A DNA stretch of 64,000 nt from positions 62,001-126,000 of the forward strand of contig NZ_FQVP01000006.1 of NCBI RefSeq assembly GCF_900129395.1, written 5' to 3'. Positions 8-6,733 of the stretch are shown one piece after another. A program made the position numbers and the translations under genes. Numbering within the stretch: position 1 is the stretch's first letter; every line of letters starts with the position of its first letter. The notes beneath the pieces are model-generated. The model saw only the letters and a list, made by a program, of their open reading frames with translations, had not been told where the DNA came from and did not search any database. The stretch is from Pseudosulfitobacter pseudonitzschiae. Lineage in GTDB: Bacteria; Pseudomonadota; Alphaproteobacteria; Rhodobacterales; Rhodobacteraceae.

Positions 8-1090
8 GTGGATCTGATGACGTCAAAAGGCAATGAATCAAACGATGCGCCCCCTGTTGATCCTGCTCAGGGCGAGACAGGCGAAAGTGCCGCGATTGCC
101 TTGCCTGCCGATGTGGCGGGCTCAGGGACCCTGGATCGTCTGGTCGACACCGCCCGCGATTATGCGCGGGCCGCGACCTCGGACAACACGCTGAAAGCCT
201 ACACCACGGACTGGGCGCATTTCACCCGCTGGTGCCGGATGAAGGGCGCAGACCCCCTGCCCCCCGCGTCCGAATTGATCGGGCTGTATCTGGCGGACCT
301 CGCCGCCGGTACGCGCCCGCTCTCTGTCAGCACCATCGACCGCCGTCTGTCGGGACTGGCCTGGAACTACGCGCAGCGCGGGTTCACCCTGGACCGCAAG
401 AACCGGCACATCGCCACGGTGCTGGCCGGGATCAAACGCAGGCACGCCCGCCCGCCAGTGCAGAAAGAGGCGATCCTGGCCGAGGATATCCTGGCCATGG
501 TCGCCACCCTGCCCCAGGATCTGCGCGGATTGCGCGACCGTGCGCTGTTGTTGATCGGCTATGCCGGGGGCCTGCGCCGCTCCGAGATCGTCGGGTTGGA
601 CCGCCACAAGGACGACACGCCCGACAGCGGCGGCTGGATCGATATCATGGACGACGGCGCCCTGCTGACCCTGAACGCCAAGACCGGCTGGCGCGAGGTC
701 GAGATCGGGCGCGGGTCGTCGGACTTCAGTTGCCCGGTGCGCGCGCTTGAACAATGGCTGCACTTTGCCCGCATCGACTTTGGCCCGATTTTCGTCCGCA
801 CCGCACGGGACGGCACGCGGGCGCTGGACACCCGGTTGAACGACAAACACGTCGCGCGCCTGATCAAGCAAACCGTCGAAGACGCGGGGTTGCGGCCCGA
901 GCTGTCAAAAGCGGACCGTGCCAAGCTGTACTCGGGCCACAGCCTGCGCGCGGGGCTGGCCAGTTCGGCCGAGGTGGACGAACGCTATATCCAAAAGCAG
1001 CTTGGCCATGCCTCGGCGGAAATGACCCGCCGCTACCAGCGTCGCCGCGACCGGTTTCGGGTGAACCTGACAAAGGCGGCGGGGCTGTAA
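8..1090 (+). CDS. tyrosine recombinase / site-specific integrase
   Basis: A 360-residue phage-integrase-family recombinase, of the kind that resolves replicon multimers or moves DNA elements. Residues about 42-145 form the SAM-like core-binding domain and 150-355 the catalytic domain. The catalytic set can be read as Arg190 (GLRRSEI), Lys225 on the beta hairpin, His311 and Arg314 (GHSLRAG), His334 (QLGH) and the nucleophile Tyr343 (RRYQ), so the enzyme looks intact. The start is uncertain: GTG at 8 opens the frame, ATG at 17 is in frame, and the window edge hides any ribosome binding site. It ends 5 bp from the converging parB stop. Placement beside the partition and replication genes suggests dimer resolution for the replicon, but a mobile-element integrase is not excluded. 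Confidence 0.85.
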   Translation: MDLMTSKGNESNDAPPVDPAQGETGESAAIALPADVAGSGTLDRLVDTARDYARAATSDNTLKAYTTDWAHFTRWCRMKGADPLPPASELIGLYLADLAAGTRPLSVSTIDRRLSGLAWNYAQRGFTLDRKNRHIATVLAGIKRRHARPPVQKEAILAEDILAMVATLPQDLRGLRDRALLLIGYAGGLRRSEIVGLDRHKDDTPDSGGWIDIMDDGALLTLNAKTGWREVEIGRGSSDFSCPVRALEQWLHFARIDFGPIFVRTARDGTRALDTRLNDKHVARLIKQTVEDAGLRPELSKADRAKLYSGHSLRAGLASSAEVDERYIQKQLGHASAEMTRRYQRRRDRFRVNLTKAAGL

Positions 1091-1095
1091 GGCCC

Positions 1096-2223
1096 CTACC
1101 CTTCCTCGTCCAGCGTGGCCAGAAAGGCCTCGATCCCGGCCTGAAGCCGGGCGCGTGGCACGGCGGAAAAATCGCGGTCCAGCCGCAACTCGACCTTGCC
1201 ATCCGATGCGGTCACCCGCGCCTCGCCCTCGGGTCGCCCCAGCCGGAGCGAGGTTTTCGAAACGGATTTCGCCACCGGTTCCGCCTTGGCTTTTTTCTGC
1301 GGCACAAGGCTGTCGCGCAGAATTCGCATTTCGGCAGCGGCATCACGGTCCGGCATCTCCTTCAGCGCCTTCATGATGCCCTCGGCCCGCTCCGGCTCGG
1401 CGTCCAACAGCTTGTAGACATCCAGCCCCAGCGCGCGCGGGATCGCTTCGGGATGGCGCACCGTGCCGTCCAACGCCTCGAGCACGCGGGCGAACTGACG
1501 GATATAGGTCCGCTTCTGTTTCAGCGCCGAGGCATACAGCGTCGACACCGCCTCGCCCGACGGGATACTTTCATCGCGGGCATAGGACAGCGCAAGCTGG
1601 GCCATCTCGCCAAAGGACAGATCCTTGCGGATCAGGTTTTCATCCACCATCTTGCGGTACAGCGCCACCAGCGGTTCCCCGCGGGGAACCATCGCCGCCG
1701 GGATGCGGGTGTACCGCGGGTCACCGGTTTCCTCGGCCAGTTGCCGGAACGCGGTCAGGCGACGAAAGCCCTGGATCAGTTCAAAGCCCTCTGCGGTCTG
1801 CTCCACGCGGATCGGATTAGAGAGACCAACCGCCTTGATAGACTCTTTCAACTCGGCCAGTTCCGGGTCGACATTGGCCGACCGGTCGCGCGTCAGCTTT
1901 GAGGTCAGCACGTCCGAGGTCTGGATAAGATCGGTGATCAGCCCCAGCTTTTTCAGCCGCACATGCTCGTGCGCCAGCGCGTCGTTTTCGGCGCGGATGG
2001 CTGCCTCGGCCTGGGCCCGCTCGGCTGTGGCATCGGCGGTTTCGGCAATCGCACTGGCCATTGGCCCGCGTCGAGGCGCGCCAACTTCGCTGACCCGCGG
2101 CTGTGGCGACACGTCCATCGACTTGGTCTCGGGCGCGCGCTGGTTCCCCGCGGGGAACCCTGCGGTCTCTTCTTCTTCGTCCAGTTCAAAATTGATATCG
2201 AAGACAGAGCGTTTCTTAACCAT
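1096..2223 (-). CDS. parB: ParB/RepB-type partition protein
   Basis: A 375-residue centromere-binding partition protein. The N-terminal 95 residues are acidic and low in complexity. A ParB/Spo0J-like nuclease/CTPase-fold domain follows at about 115-200, with QGFRRLTA (151-158) at the place of the GxRRxxA nucleotide-binding motif. A helical DNA-binding region covers about 200-300. It starts 3 bp after the parA stop, so the two are co-transcribed. The coding sequence contains two copies of an 18-bp perfect palindrome, around codons 23-27 and 178-185; a third copy lies upstream of parA. The protein probably binds these and spreads from them. It is closer in layout to plasmid RepB/ParB than to chromosomal ParB. 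The role is firm; the target sites are inferred. Confidence 0.88.
   Translation of the reverse strand: MVKKRSVFDINFELDEEEETAGFPAGNQRAPETKSMDVSPQPRVSEVGAPRRGPMASAIAETADATAERAQAEAAIRAENDALAHEHVRLKKLGLITDLIQTSDVLTSKLTRDRSANVDPELAELKESIKAVGLSNPIRVEQTAEGFELIQGFRRLTAFRQLAEETGDPRYTRIPAAMVPRGEPLVALYRKMVDENLIRKDLSFGEMAQLALSYARDESIPSGEAVSTLYASALKQKRTYIRQFARVLEALDGTVRHPEAIPRALGLDVYKLLDAEPERAEGIMKALKEMPDRDAAAEMRILRDSLVPQKKAKAEPVAKSVSKTSLRLGRPEGEARVTASDGKVELRLDRDFSAVPRARLQAGIEAFLATLDEEG
1673..1690. promoter_or_regulatory. putative parS palindrome, copy 1 (inside parB)
   Basis: Perfect 18-bp palindrome GGTTCCCCGCGGGGAACC within the parB reading frame (around residues 178-185). The same 18 bases recur at 2142 and 3566 and nowhere else that I found. 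Repetition of a perfect palindrome in a par operon is the usual look of a ParB binding site. The parS role is inferred. Confidence 0.6.
2142..2159. promoter_or_regulatory. putative parS palindrome, copy 2 (inside parB)
   Basis: Second identical copy of the 18-bp palindrome, in the parB frame near residues 22-27, inside the low-complexity N-terminal segment where the protein sequence is least constrained. Confidence 0.6.
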
Positions 2224-2226
2224 TCA

Positions 2227-3522
2227 TCAATCCTCCAGCTTGTCCCACGCGGCAACCAGCGTGGCTTGGAATTCGTCATAGGCCCGATCAAAGGACATCC
2301 GCGCACGACGCCAGGTTTCCCGCGTCATCTGGCGGTAATCCATTTCATAGATCGACGACAGGAACCGCCCGGACTGTTCAACCGCCCGCGTCATCTCGAT
2401 CGGATGCTCTGTTACATGTGACTTAAAAACCTGACCAAATGCTGTCTGCATCGCACGGTGCAAATCATTGTTCGGCTCGAACCGGGTCAGCAGGAACCGG
2501 ATATCGGAAAACACCTTGTCCGGGTTCGTGCCCGATGGCAGCCGACCGCGGAACCGACCCAGATCCTCCAGCGCCTCGGACAGCTGTCCGATAAAGCTGG
2601 TGGTGCTGTCATATTCCCAATAGCCCGGACCCGAGGGCACATAAAGAACGTCGGCGGCAAAGACCGCGTTCATCGACTGATAGCCGATCGCAGGCGGACA
2701 GTCGAAGATGATCAGGTCATAGGCATCGGCCGGGATCTGATCCAGATAGCGCGACACGGCGGCAAAGAACGACCATTCGGGATTCAGGTGCCGGTACTGC
2801 GCGCTGGCAAATTCGACAAAGGCCGCGTTGGCGCAGCTGGGGATGATGTCGATGGTGGACCAGCTGGTCGGCTTGATGAAATCCGTGACACGCAGATCGC
2901 TCAGCCCCATGCCGGTGACGGACGCGGGCAGCTTGCGCTGGGGCAGGGCGGTTCCGCTCTCGGCCCCGGCGGCGGCGGCGTTCATGCGTTCGGTCTCGCG
3001 GATCAGGTCGCGGGCCATGATGCCCCAGACGGTGACCTCTTCCGAAACATCGGACAGGCCCATCGAATGGCTCAGCGTCGCCTGCGGGTCAAAGTCGACG
3101 GCCAGCACGCGGTAGCCATCCAGCGCGGCGGCATGGGCGAAATGCAGCGCGACGGTGGACTTGCCGGCACCCCCCTTGAAGTTTGCAATCGCCGCCCGCA
3201 CCGCTCGCTTGCCCGCCGGACGGACAGGCATCAGCGACTTGCTCTTGATTTTCAGCTTGCGGCGCAGCTCGTTGATCTCATCCAGCGTGTACCACCGCTG
3301 GCGCCCGTCCTCCTCGACCAGCCCCTCGGGCAGGGACGGGTCCGCGGCAAGCCGCCCCCGGAAGGTGGAGGGATTGATCTTGAGGATCAGTTCGGCGACC
3401 TCCCAGCTCGAGAACCGGCGCAGGGTTTTTTCCATCTCGGGGGAATACGTCTGTTTGCGGATAAACCCCTGCATCTTCAGCGACTGCGCCTGCAGCTTTG
3501 CCAGATCGGTGTGCGTGTACAT
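2227..3522 (-). CDS. parA: ParA/RepA-type partition ATPase
   Basis: A 431-residue plasmid-type ParA. Residues about 30-95 form a winged-helix/HTH region as in type Ia ParA and RepA proteins, which autoregulate their operon. The ATPase domain begins near 105 with the deviant Walker A motif KGGAGKST (116-123), followed by the VDFDPQ motif near 142-147 and a Walker B-like IIFDCPPA. Its ATP-driven nucleoid gradient would move ParB-parS complexes. It heads the parAB operon and is transcribed divergently from the replication initiator across a 527-bp region. One copy of the palindrome sits 44 bp upstream of its start, where ParA/ParB autoregulation would be expected. Family assignment is secure. 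Confidence 0.92.
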   Translation of the reverse strand: MYTHTDLAKLQAQSLKMQGFIRKQTYSPEMEKTLRRFSSWEVAELILKINPSTFRGRLAADPSLPEGLVEEDGRQRWYTLDEINELRRKLKIKSKSLMPVRPAGKRAVRAAIANFKGGAGKSTVALHFAHAAALDGYRVLAVDFDPQATLSHSMGLSDVSEEVTVWGIMARDLIRETERMNAAAAGAESGTALPQRKLPASVTGMGLSDLRVTDFIKPTSWSTIDIIPSCANAAFVEFASAQYRHLNPEWSFFAAVSRYLDQIPADAYDLIIFDCPPAIGYQSMNAVFAADVLYVPSGPGYWEYDSTTSFIGQLSEALEDLGRFRGRLPSGTNPDKVFSDIRFLLTRFEPNNDLHRAMQTAFGQVFKSHVTEHPIEMTRAVEQSGRFLSSIYEMDYRQMTRETWRRARMSFDRAYDEFQATLVAAWDKLED

Positions 3523-3565
3523 AAAGAGACCTCGGATTGCCGGTTGCTGCCCCTGATTTGGTCCG

Positions 3566-3583
3566 GGTTCCCCGCGGGGAACC
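3566..3583. promoter_or_regulatory. putative parS palindrome, copy 3 (upstream of parA)
   Basis: Third identical copy of the 18-bp palindrome, 44 bp upstream of the parA start codon. The position would allow both partition-complex loading and repression of the par operon. Confidence 0.65.
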
Positions 3584-3744
3584 GACGCCAGACAGAAAAC
3601 AGAACGCTAATTCTTCTTCTTTCTTGGTTTAAGCCGAACTTGCATAGTAAAGGAAGTGATATATTCTGAATTCGGGAAATTCGTGATCCCCTTGCATTTA
3701 TGCCTGCCGCATAGATTCGCAACGGTTCCACGGGCCAGGGCAAC

Positions 3745-3848
3745 CTTGCGGGAATCCCCACGATATTGCGGGACACCTTTGTTTGTTCTGCTATGTATTG
3801 GGGGACAAAACTGTCAAATTGGGGGACGCCCTGTATGGCCCCCAATAC
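3745..3848 (+). repeat. iteron-like G-rich direct repeats
   Basis: Ten-base units with a shared pattern: CTTGCGGGAA at 3745, ATTGCGGGAC at 3765, and ATTGGGGGAC at 3797 and 3818. An inverted relative follows at 3838-3848 (GGCCCCCAATA, plus strand). Unit spacings are 20, 32 and 21 bp, close to two helical turns for two of the three steps. The array ends about 200 bp before the initiator start codon. It is a candidate binding array for the replication initiator, but it is short and degenerate, so the call is tentative. Confidence 0.4.
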
Positions 3849-4049
3849 CTATATACCCAAAATTCTAAATTGAATGAGGGGGTTTGAAGGTGCTCTGCGA
3901 AACAGCCTCTTGACAGAATCGCAACTTTGGACGCAAATCAGGGAATAAGTTGGAAAGACGTTGTCTGCGTTTGCTCCAATACAGGATCCGCCAAGAGATC
4001 CTTCTATGAGGCACAGTATAGCTGCGTCCCGGCGCAGTAGAGGGCATCC

Positions 4050-4730
4050 ATGCACATTGTCAAACCCGCACGTCCGCGCGACGCTGCGCGCAAATATGAT
4101 ATCATCACCGCCCTGGGCGCCTATGCGCTGGCGCGTGACAAACATGACCAGCGGTTGGTTCTGCGGCTGATCACCCTGATCACCGCGCGCTACAACTGGG
4201 CACGGGATGAACTGGCGGTGGGCCAGCGCGAGATCGCGCGGTTGTGGTCGGTGGACGAACGCACGGTGAAACGCGAGATGGCAAAGCTGCGGGGCAAGGG
4301 CTGGCTGGTGGTCAAACGCCAGGGTGCCCGTGGCCGTGTCACGGAATACGGCATGGACCTGGACCGGATGCTGGCCATGACCGAGGGCGACTGGAGCAAC
4401 GTCGGACCGGATTTCGATCTGCGGATGAGCGGCAAGACCGAAGAGACGCCGGTGGTGTCCTTGCCGCTGAAAGGCGACGTGCCGCCCCCCGATGTCAGCG
4501 CGGGCACGGAATGGGTTCTGGCCCAGGCGATCCTGCACGCCGAGGCACCGGACGTCTATGGCAGCTGGTTGCGCAACCTTGAACGTGTGGGCAGGGCAGG
4601 GGGGCGGCTGACGCTGAAAGCGCCCAGCCGGTTTCACGGAACCTATGTTCAGACGCATCTGGCCCGACGGGTGCTGGCCGCCTGCCAAGCGGTGGATTCG
4701 GATGTGACGGATGTCGGGATCGTGGTCTGA
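4050..4730 (+). CDS. DnaA-like replication initiator of an extrachromosomal replicon
   Basis: A 226-residue protein with two visible parts. Residues about 15-110 contain a winged-helix module (VGQREIARLWSVDERTVKRE), followed by a basic wing. The C-terminal part, about 150-215, resembles DnaA domain I: an alternating pattern with SWLRNLERV, a GGRLTLKAPSRF strand, and a THLARRVLAAC helix. Rhodobacteraceae plasmids are known to use four replicase types, one of them called DnaA-like, and the divergent arrangement with parAB matches that module. There is no AAA+ ATPase domain, so it is not chromosomal DnaA. The start is the first ATG after the spacer. Initiation at the AT-rich region just upstream is inferred from context. 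Confidence 0.72.
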   Translation: MHIVKPARPRDAARKYDIITALGAYALARDKHDQRLVLRLITLITARYNWARDELAVGQREIARLWSVDERTVKREMAKLRGKGWLVVKRQGARGRVTEYGMDLDRMLAMTEGDWSNVGPDFDLRMSGKTEETPVVSLPLKGDVPPPDVSAGTEWVLAQAILHAEAPDVYGSWLRNLERVGRAGGRLTLKAPSRFHGTYVQTHLARRVLAACQAVDSDVTDVGIVV

Positions 4731-4795
4731 TCCGCTGCCGCTTCACCTGATCCGCACGACAGGCTAGGCTGGCGCAGCCTCAGGAAAGCCAGCCC

Positions 4796-6733
4796 ATGAC
4801 ATCCGTTCGCCTGCGACTTTTGATCCTTGCCCTTGCGCCGTTGATCGTGCTGATGCCGTTGCTGTTGCTTCTGGGCATGACCCGCTGGACCTCTGATTAC
4901 GACAAGGTGCTGATCGCCAATGTCGAAAGCGACCTGAAAATCGCGAGCCAGTACCTGTCACGCTTGCGGGCCAAGACCGGGGACGAACTGAACGCGGTCA
5001 CGGCATCGGTGGAGTTCAACACATGGCTGGACCGTCCCGAAGATGAACGCGCCCGCTATTTCGACGAGACCCGCGACCGGCTGGGGCTGACGTTTCTGTA
5101 TTACCTGCCCGCCGAACAGGTTGGCCGGGCGGGGGCCATCTGGCCGGTGATCGCACAGGCGGCAGCAGGGCAGGGCGGCGCGCAGATCGATATCATGGCC
5201 AGTGACACCTTGGCCCGGCTGTCACCAGAGATTGCCCAGACCGCGCGCATACCGCTGATCGCCACGCCAGCCGCCGTGCCCACAACCCGTGCCGTCGAGG
5301 ACCGTGGCATGGTCATTCACGCGGCCAGCCCGATCACGCTGAACGGGCATCGCGGGGTTCTGGTGGGCGGCATCCTGTTGAACCGCAATCTGGATTTCAT
5401 CGACACGATCAACGACCTTGTCTATGCGCACGCCGGGGCTGCGGGGGCGCGACAGGGGACGGCGACGCTGTTTCTAGATGATGTGCGGATTTCAACCAAC
5501 GTGCGCCTGTTCGAGGATGTGCGCGCTCTGGGCACGCGGGTGTCGGGCGAAGTGCGCAAGGCCGTGCTGAGCGAGGGGCGCATCTGGCTGGACCGGGCGT
5601 TTGTGGTCAACGACTGGTATATCTCGGGCTATCTGCCGATCACCGACAGCTTTGGCGACCGGGTGGGCATGTTGTACGTGGGCTTTCTGGAAGCGCCGTT
5701 CAACGTGGCCAAGCGGGATGCCTTCCTGTGGATGATGGCGGCCTTTGCCGCCGTGCTGATCCTGTCGGCACCGGTGTTTCTGTGGATGGCGCGGGGCATT
5801 TTCGCGCCGCTGGAACGGATGACCCAAGTGATCAACCGCGTCGGGCGGGGCGATCTGTCGGCGCGGATCGGTCCCGTGGGCGCGCGCGGCGAGATCGGCG
5901 AGGTGGCGCAGCATCTGGACGGGCTGCTGGAGCAGGTACAGGACCGCGACCTGCGGCTGCGCGCCTGGAACGAGGAGTTGAACAAACGCGTCGACCAGCG
6001 CACCGCCGAGTTAAGCGAAGCGAACGCCAAGCTGGAACAGACGTTCCGGCAACTGGTGATGAGCGAAAAGCTGGCCTCGATCGGGGAGATCACTGCCGGC
6101 GTCGCCCATGAGATCAACAATCCGGTGGCGGTGATCCTGGGCAATGTCGATGTGATCCGGCAGACCCTGGGCGAGGGCGCGGTCCCGGTGCGGACCGAAC
6201 TGGACCTGATCGACAAACAGGTGTCGCGGATCGAGGCGATCGTGGGCAAGTTGTTGAAATTCGCGGCCCCGTCGGATTTTGCCGACCATCAGCAACAGGT
6301 CGACCTGGCCCCCGTGGTGCGCGATTGCCTGGTGCTGGTCGATCACCTGATCAGCCAGCATCAGATCACCGTGACCTGTCAGTTTGATCCGGTGCCGCCG
6401 GTGCGTGTGGACACGGGCGAGATCCAGCAGGTGATTGTCAATCTGGTGGTGAACGCGGTTCAGGCGATGGGCGACGGGGGGCAATTGATCCTGCAACTGT
6501 ATCCCGACCCGCGCGGGGGCGCGGCGCTGGTGGTGCAGGACAGCGGGCCGGGCGTGGCCGAGGACCAGCTGGGGTCGGTCTTTGATCCGTTCTTTACCAC
6601 CAAGCGGGGTGAGGGGACCGGGCTGGGCCTGTCGATCTCGCAAACGCTGATCCAGCGGGCGGGTGGCTTGATTTCGGTGCGCAACCGCGACGGGGGCGGG
6701 GCGGAGTTCACCGTCTGGCTGCCCGAAAGATAG
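4796..6733 (+). CDS. membrane sensor histidine kinase (Cache-HAMP-HisKA-HATPase)
   Basis: A 645-residue inner-membrane sensor kinase. Transmembrane helix 1 spans about residues 7-28. A large periplasmic double-Cache-like region (about 30-305) follows, then transmembrane helix 2 (about 311-335), HAMP (336-390), a short coiled coil, HisKA with phospho-acceptor His438 (GVAHEINNP), and a HATPase_c domain with N, G1 (DSGPGVAE) and G2 (GTGLGLS) boxes. Cache domains bind small molecules, often carboxylates, and the layout is like DctB-type kinases. No response regulator gene is adjacent. The only response regulator in the window is the NtrC-like gene at 50.5-51.9 kb, a possible but unproven partner. 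A GGAAAG ribosome binding site lies six bases before the ATG. Confidence 0.9.
   Translation: MTSVRLRLLILALAPLIVLMPLLLLLGMTRWTSDYDKVLIANVESDLKIASQYLSRLRAKTGDELNAVTASVEFNTWLDRPEDERARYFDETRDRLGLTFLYYLPAEQVGRAGAIWPVIAQAAAGQGGAQIDIMASDTLARLSPEIAQTARIPLIATPAAVPTTRAVEDRGMVIHAASPITLNGHRGVLVGGILLNRNLDFIDTINDLVYAHAGAAGARQGTATLFLDDVRISTNVRLFEDVRALGTRVSGEVRKAVLSEGRIWLDRAFVVNDWYISGYLPITDSFGDRVGMLYVGFLEAPFNVAKRDAFLWMMAAFAAVLILSAPVFLWMARGIFAPLERMTQVINRVGRGDLSARIGPVGARGEIGEVAQHLDGLLEQVQDRDLRLRAWNEELNKRVDQRTAELSEANAKLEQTFRQLVMSEKLASIGEITAGVAHEINNPVAVILGNVDVIRQTLGEGAVPVRTELDLIDKQVSRIEAIVGKLLKFAAPSDFADHQQQVDLAPVVRDCLVLVDHLISQHQITVTCQFDPVPPVRVDTGEIQQVIVNLVVNAVQAMGDGGQLILQLYPDPRGGAALVVQDSGPGVAEDQLGSVFDPFFTTKRGEGTGLGLSISQTLIQRAGGLISVRNRDGGGAEFTVWLPER

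Follow-up and report, generated by a model that had tools for sequence, protein, structure and literature searches.

Putative parS palindromes embedded in the partition genes of a DnaA-like-I plasmid, and a single ParB residue that predicts their sequence in related plasmids

Results

A DnaA-like-I replication and partition module

The window, a stretch of 64,000 nucleotides of Pseudosulfitobacter pseudonitzschiae DNA, lies on contig C19 (250,548 bases) and carries a parAB pair, a divergent gene for a DnaA-like replicase and three copies of a perfect palindrome (Table 1); a XerC-like integrase gene lies beyond parB. The window ParB scored 23.2 bits against the ParB_N profile, under the 26.3 cut-off, and the scores with the RepA model (211 of 348 bits) and the RepB model (28 of 201.5 bits) were both below cut-off. 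No NCBIfam model matched the replicase, which carries DnaA_N instead and whose relatives are annotated as 'DnaA N-terminal domain-containing protein'. The module is not a repA-repB-repC operon with a RepC replicase. Its gene set (parAB and a DnaA-like replicase) is the same as that of the DnaA-like-I modules of Rhodobacterales, and the arrangement of parAB beside a divergent DnaA-like replicase was also found in loci L018-L021 and L024. L019 is plasmid pDSM14862_b, whose ParB is 80% identical to that of the window and which is tabulated as DnaA-like-I in PMC9025767; the ParB of pDSM14862_d (L138), tabulated there as DnaA-like-II, is 35% identical. The window module is a DnaA-like-I plasmid replication and partition module, and the original prediction of a DnaA-like Rhodobacteraceae plasmid is borne out by the gene set and by the relative pDSM14862_b.

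Positions 1000-4800 of the window matched plasmid unnamed7 (250,456 bp) of P. pseudonitzschiae H46 with 100% identity. The two ends of C19 (1-110 and 250490-250548) repeat the same stretch, which contains a one-mismatch copy of the palindrome; because of this repeat C19 looks like a complete circular plasmid, as far as its sequence indicates. Type-I and type-II-like modules co-occur in this genome: contig C17 carries a DnaA-like-II-like module (L129, 3458-4525) with two copies of GGTAACCCATGGGTTACC (4531 and 4603) just downstream of parB, and in its ParB a lysine aligns with residue 235 and a methionine with residue 236 of the window ParB.

Table 1. Features of the par module in the window (class A, modules with the same 16-mer as the window)
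Feature	Position	Strand	Remarks
parB	1096..2223	-	375 aa; Lys235 opens predicted recognition helix 235-250
parS-like palindrome GTTCCCCGCGGGGAAC	1674..1689	.	parB codons 179-184 (VPRGE); exact in 25/27 class A modules
parS-like palindrome GTTCCCCGCGGGGAAC	2143..2158	.	parB codons 22-27 (FPAGN); exact in 24/27 class A modules
parA	2227..3522	-	431 aa, ParA/RepA-type ATPase
parS-like palindrome GTTCCCCGCGGGGAAC	3567..3582	.	44 nt before parA ATG; upstream copy in 24/27 class A modules
DnaA-like replicase	4050..4730	+	226 aa, divergent from parAB; Pfam DnaA_N at residues 167-213, E 8.9e-6

Three copies of a 16-bp palindrome

The perfect 18-mer GGTTCCCCGCGGGGAACC occurred at 1673-1690, 2142-2159 and 3566-3583, and no fourth copy with up to three mismatches was found across the 64 kb. 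This agrees with the original prediction, which had given 1673, 2142 and 3566 as its positions with no further copy in the window, and the ORF coordinates confirm its statement that two copies lie in the parB frame and one upstream of parA. Dinucleotide shuffles of the window (n = 100) gave a mean of 0.11 hits, and none of the 100 reached three. The palindrome had been described as 18 bp long; although a perfect 18-mer is present in the window, the outer G/C pair varies among relatives (the flanks around the 16-mer in L019 are tt..ca and ga..ca), and 18 bp is therefore ruled out as the unit. The conserved unit is the inner 16 bp, GTTCCCCGCGGGGAAC, which fits the RepABC parS consensus GTTNNNNGCNNNNAAC as given in the accessible part of PMC9040568.

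A search of the whole genome (4,948,028 bases) revealed exact matches to GTTCCCCGCGGGGAAC at only three places, all in the par module, and the reversed pattern used as a control had no exact match. One-mismatch copies were identified elsewhere at C19:59 (and again at the contig end), at C19:183016 and once on C16; given three matches of the reversed control pattern at up to two mismatches, they are not clearly above chance as extra sites of the replicon. The parS sites of ParABS systems are palindromes of 14-16 bp, with several copies near parAB and specific to the replicon, and the 16-mer has these properties.

Synonymous variation is suppressed at the site codons

For comparison we assembled 95 modules, comprising the window, 14 plasmid loci and 80 genome loci from a ParB profile search, the latter being the best 80 of 425 candidate stretches encoding a ParB relative. 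L022 (two par modules, with a partial class A parB), L023 (S. pontiacus like L021, with a later annotated start) and L029 (a 100% ParB copy of the window) were left out. Class A comprised the 27 modules with the 16-mer of the window and includes the near-identical window, L018 and L048. The copy around codon 25 of parB was exact in 24 of the 27, that around codon 181 in 25 and the upstream copy was present in 24; among the three modules without the upstream copy, L039 is cut there by a contig end. The mean pairwise synonymous difference in class A (n = 27) was 0.037 at the 10 slot codons compared with 0.551 at 229 other conserved parB codons, an approximately 15-fold reduction. None of 100,000 random codon sets was as low as the slot codons, and the lowest of 203 five-codon windows of parB fell in the two slots. 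The original prediction had asked whether relatives keep the palindrome at the same codons with suppressed synonymous variation; both were seen, and the sequence part of its refutation test (absence or synonymous drift in close relatives) did not go against it.

These data bear on an explanation in which the recurrence reflects constraint on the protein or on codon usage, or a spreading repeat, with no role in DNA binding. Two of the copies are coding and the peptide VPRGE also occurs outside class A, as this explanation would have it, but synonymous positions are frozen only within the site codons, and the codons on either side are free of this effect. Two class C modules, L027 and L078, provide a natural control: both keep VPRGE by other codons and have no palindrome, showing that the peptide can exist without the site. 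Copies occupied three different reading phases as well as non-coding DNA, those within one module were mostly of one class, and the genome contained no further exact copy. We regard this explanation as barely credible.

Palindrome classes share a set of slots

The comparison was widened to 175 modules, of which 150 remained after 25 were dropped at 95% ParB identity. The genome search yielded 76 places with E <= 5.0e-55; 70 were used, four (G000, G105, G107 and G245) were already in the set, and G249 and G083 were left out. L129 and L136-L139, with other palindrome cores, were also left out of the 175. We counted as a site any perfect palindrome of 14 bp or more that fits nnTnnCCn and lies between 1.8 kb before and 1.5 kb after parB. 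Seven of the 150 modules had no qualifying palindrome, leaving 143 with a site. The palindromes of the other classes were TGTCCCCGCGGGGACA, CTTCCCCGCGGGGAAG, TTTCCCCGCGGGGAAA and CTTATCCGCGGATAAG, and the wider set added CTTACCC and TTTACCC forms. Five changes, the minimum for six states, accounted for the palindrome classes on a ParB tree that included the slot and helix columns.

Sites recurred at a limited number of places. A site was present upstream of parA in 93 of the 150 modules, at about codon 330 of parA in 88, and at about codon 25 of parB in 64, with an identical reading phase in all 64. About codon 181 of parB carried a site in 35 modules, a count that takes in seven nATCCCCG sites of R235 modules, a non-matching ATCCCC form off the class of their module. 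The ParB linker (residues 285-336) held a site in 31 modules. Downstream of parB, a site lay within 300 bp in 73 modules and farther away in 37. Codons ~326-333 of the window parA form a slot without a site, though this slot is filled in most other classes; it is unused in the 27-member class A clade and used in the K235 modules L123 and L125. Most modules carried copies of one class, with L144 and L157 being mixed.

Several loci departed from this pattern. L026, L083 and L088 (Salipiger, Alloyangia) had 12-15 copies, many in short runs upstream and downstream of parAB, compared with 1-5 in class A. The Y235 modules L096 and L113, labelled class 'R', had GTTGACAGCTGTCAAC as their only repeated palindrome, 0.3-1.6 kb upstream of parA, and were counted as site-less; GTTGACAGCTGTCAAC may belong to another system, and L113 also has one CTTCCCCGTGGGGAAG. 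In L022, a Sulfitobacter faviae plasmid (235-1317 and 4025-4837), the partial class A parB still has one site (4397) and lies near a foreign par module. The foreign ParB of this plasmid (28% identical) has its own palindrome, GTTTCGCGCGCGAAAC, at codon ~23, which indicates that N-terminal placement recurs in a distant ParB.

The idea that palindrome classes are separate compatibility groups was not supported. None of the 295 genomes searched (up to six candidates scored per genome) had two ParB matches at E <= 4.3e-76, whereas 73 by our own count of rows had one; the cut-off was our choice, and the matches typed were those above it. This may point to exclusion that acts elsewhere, perhaps through the replicase, irrespective of parS class.

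Predicted positions of the slots and of the recognition helix

In the AlphaFold2 model of the window ParB almost all of residues 21-46 had pLDDT <50 and the N-terminus is thus predicted to be disordered, residues 180-184 formed a loop between strand 173-179 and helix 185-198, and the third slot (305-333) was a linker with a beta-turn. This agrees with the original prediction, which had put one copy in an unconstrained N-terminal segment and one inside the folded domain. The parA slot corresponds to a coil (323-339) in the ParA model, predicted with moderate confidence. Residue 235 opens the predicted recognition helix (235-250). Foldseek matched the ParB model to ParB, Noc and KorB structures; the top matches were CDP-bound ParB (E 1e-8), with low TM-scores (0.22/0.40 for the first). 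GFRR at 152-155 of the window ParB aligns with the GERR motif of the host chromosomal ParB. The profile alignment to the chromosomal ParB covers the N-domain only and stops before the 235 helix, and the correspondence of residues 235/236 to Caulobacter G170/K171 was an alignment by eye.

A single ParB residue predicts the site sequence

Of all ParB columns, 235 best predicted palindrome class in the initial 95 modules, with a simple rule for half-site positions 8-7: K with GT, R with nG, Y with CT and P with TT. The rule was right in 85/85 modules of its own source set. As a hold-out we used 62 dereplicated modules fetched later, 56 of which had both a site and a prediction. Site and prediction agreed in 51 of the 52 that had been obtained through ParB similarity alone and in three of the four obtained through the palindrome (54/56 overall). 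At the level of single half-sites, agreement in the hold-out was 144/152 for R, 16/16 for K, 36/42 for P and 114/126 for Y. Leave-one-out accuracy over the 143 modules was 98.6% for residue 235 and 79.0% for the next best column, 27, which is itself a site codon (baseline 47.6%). L123 and L125 combine K235 with GTT sites, and their ParBs share only about 52-57% identity with the closest ParBs in the comparison. The exceptions were L122 (R235 with GTT sites) and L187 (Y235 with one asymmetric site), and two Ala235 modules, both with TT, were unforeseen by the rule.

The neighbouring residue 236 was associated with half-site positions 5-4: Q occurred with CC (125/125), T with AC (7/7) and V with AC (3/3), and S was mixed (CC 2, AC 3, AT 3). 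L184, with P235 and V236, carries TTTACCC, as both tendencies combined predict. On a tree with slots and helix removed, residue 235 changed about eight times and the outer pair nine times, with at most four independent pairs per trait; with so few changes, phylogeny-aware sign tests cannot reach significance. A single ParB residue, 235, predicts the site version in related plasmids and may be the cause of the specificity.

The association with ParB also bears on whether the sites are replication-initiator boxes, iteron-like, for the DnaA-like replicase. A divergent replicase of this type adjoins in nearly all of the first 95 modules and the copies cluster nearby, but a residue of ParB predicted the site class at the accuracy given above, and some sites fall in genes at the far end of the module from the replicase. 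Nor do perfect 16-bp palindromes with hundreds of bp between them resemble iterons. We therefore consider initiator boxes highly improbable.

Sites inside photosynthesis genes

Plasmid-borne photosynthesis gene clusters contain DnaA-like-I modules at a conserved position (PMC6052148). Where bchO and bchD adjoin the par module, we identified palindromes of the class of the module inside these genes, 0.2-2.2 kb downstream of parB (L067, L070, L089, L090, L097, L105 and L108; bchO/bchD gene identity was tested in L105). A survey of bchD, with matches in 80 of 198 genomes, was evaluated for the best 30 loci. All five loci in which a ParB was found (L210, L214, L215, L218 and L220) had sites in bchD, compared with none of the 25 in which none was found. 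The presence of sites in these genes beside the par module argues against a special role of parB as the carrier.

A further alternative is that the sites are operators for autoregulation of parAB, bound by ParB or ParA, and not a centromere. One copy lies just upstream of parA in the window, as in most of the 150 modules, and RepA autorepression of repABC operons has been published (PMC4492784, accessible part). However, just 111 of the 507 sites counted were upstream of parA, up to 15 copies occurred per module, the bchD sites are far from the par promoter region, and the surroundings of the upstream site revealed no sigma-70-like promoter. Across palindrome classes, full-length ParA matches share 75-99% identity with the ParA of the window, whereas the palindrome follows the recognition helix of ParB. 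An operator role in place of a centromere is, in our judgement, unlikely.

Discussion

Comparison of the palindromes of this module with those of its relatives indicates that they are very probably parS sites, the centromere of a DnaA-like-I ParABS module. Counting against this reading are the exceptions L122 and L187, the seven of 150 modules without a site, and the mixed modules L144 and L157. The original prediction had proposed a centromere inside parB that would tie formation of the partition complex to parB expression. The behaviour expected of parS, at the same codons and with frozen synonymous positions, was observed. The proposed coupling to parB expression was not supported: sites also lie upstream of parA, in parA, downstream of parB, in non-coding DNA and in bchO and bchD, and the common factor is closeness to parAB.

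In the centromere reading, ParB dimers would recognise the 16-bp palindrome via the helix that starts at residue 235. The predicted fold of ParB and its putative GxRR motif resemble those of CTP-clamp ParBs and would make loading and sliding the likely mode, such that ParB would load at the sites as CTP clamps, like other ParBs, and then spread. ParA would then separate the ParB complexes; binding and partition at these sites are what we infer from the sequence comparison. Through the copy that precedes parA, ParB might in addition repress its own operon, although the lack of a sigma-70-like promoter near this site makes autorepression a weak part of the scheme. Sites would accumulate in the few kb around parAB, at places where the encoded protein tolerates the dictated residues (a disordered tail, a loop or a linker), and selection on the DNA would freeze the slot codons. 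A shift in ParB specificity would be accompanied by a matching change in the copies that the module carries, among them those within parA and parB. We favour, with some reserve, a natural and partly combinatorial ParB-parS code, in which residue 235 would set the two outer pairs and residue 236 would influence the position-5 pair. Each change of the code would rewrite the embedded centromere copies in ParA, ParB and even photosynthesis genes, so that the residues of those proteins would follow the centromere.

Palindromes are already known as partition anchors of DnaA-like and RepABC plasmids. Conserved palindromes in the DnaA-like module were reportedly described by Petersen et al. in 2011 as probable centromeric anchors. 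In Bacillus subtilis, a chromosomal parS lies within spo0J (parB), the gene of its own ParB; that chromosome has a single consensus, and its embedded site is not known to switch along with the class of ParB. No printed precedent for a parS inside parB was found in the literature searched. The same literature, which excluded most subscription papers, contained no fixed coding slots and no residue-235 correlation in DnaA-like modules; the palindrome classes within type I, the slots in coding sequence and the correlation with residue 235 are results of the present analysis.

For RepABC plasmids, palindromes serve as partition anchors (PMC5613091, PMC3910554, PMC3910702, PMC9426580). According to the accessible parts of PMC9040568 and PMC5613091, their parS are group-specific palindromes of the consensus form given above, and one symmetric base exchange separates RepABC-1 from RepABC-2. 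In Rhizobiales they have been reported from the 5' end of repB, and in Rhodobacterales from ORFs that follow repC (PMC9040568). In contrast, the window module has no repC; its sites occupy two fixed parB codons, to which relatives add a parA codon, and these slots outlast changes of the site sequence.

Narrow cognate specificity has been described for similar 16-bp parS sites (PMC5450999, accessible part). In ParB and Noc, which base is preferred at given half-site positions depends on a small number of residues in the DNA-binding domain that can switch it, and R173 contacts G at one of the two switching positions (PMC7383237, Jalal et al. 2020, as far as accessible); this contact is comparable to R235 with nG in the DnaA-like-I ParBs. 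The ParB/Noc switch involves four residues and was defined by mutagenesis, whereas the link described here is a correlation between the site and a single natural residue (plus 236) that takes at least four states.

What began as a single palindrome in parB has become a comparative dataset of 143 dereplicated modules with several site switches, matched site sequences and a single residue as candidate determinant. Single substitutions now suffice to test how ParB-parS specificity evolves, and in DnaA-like-I plasmids parS can be guessed from sequence with the residue rule. Inside plasmid maintenance genes, synonymous freedom is overridden by selection on cis-acting DNA.
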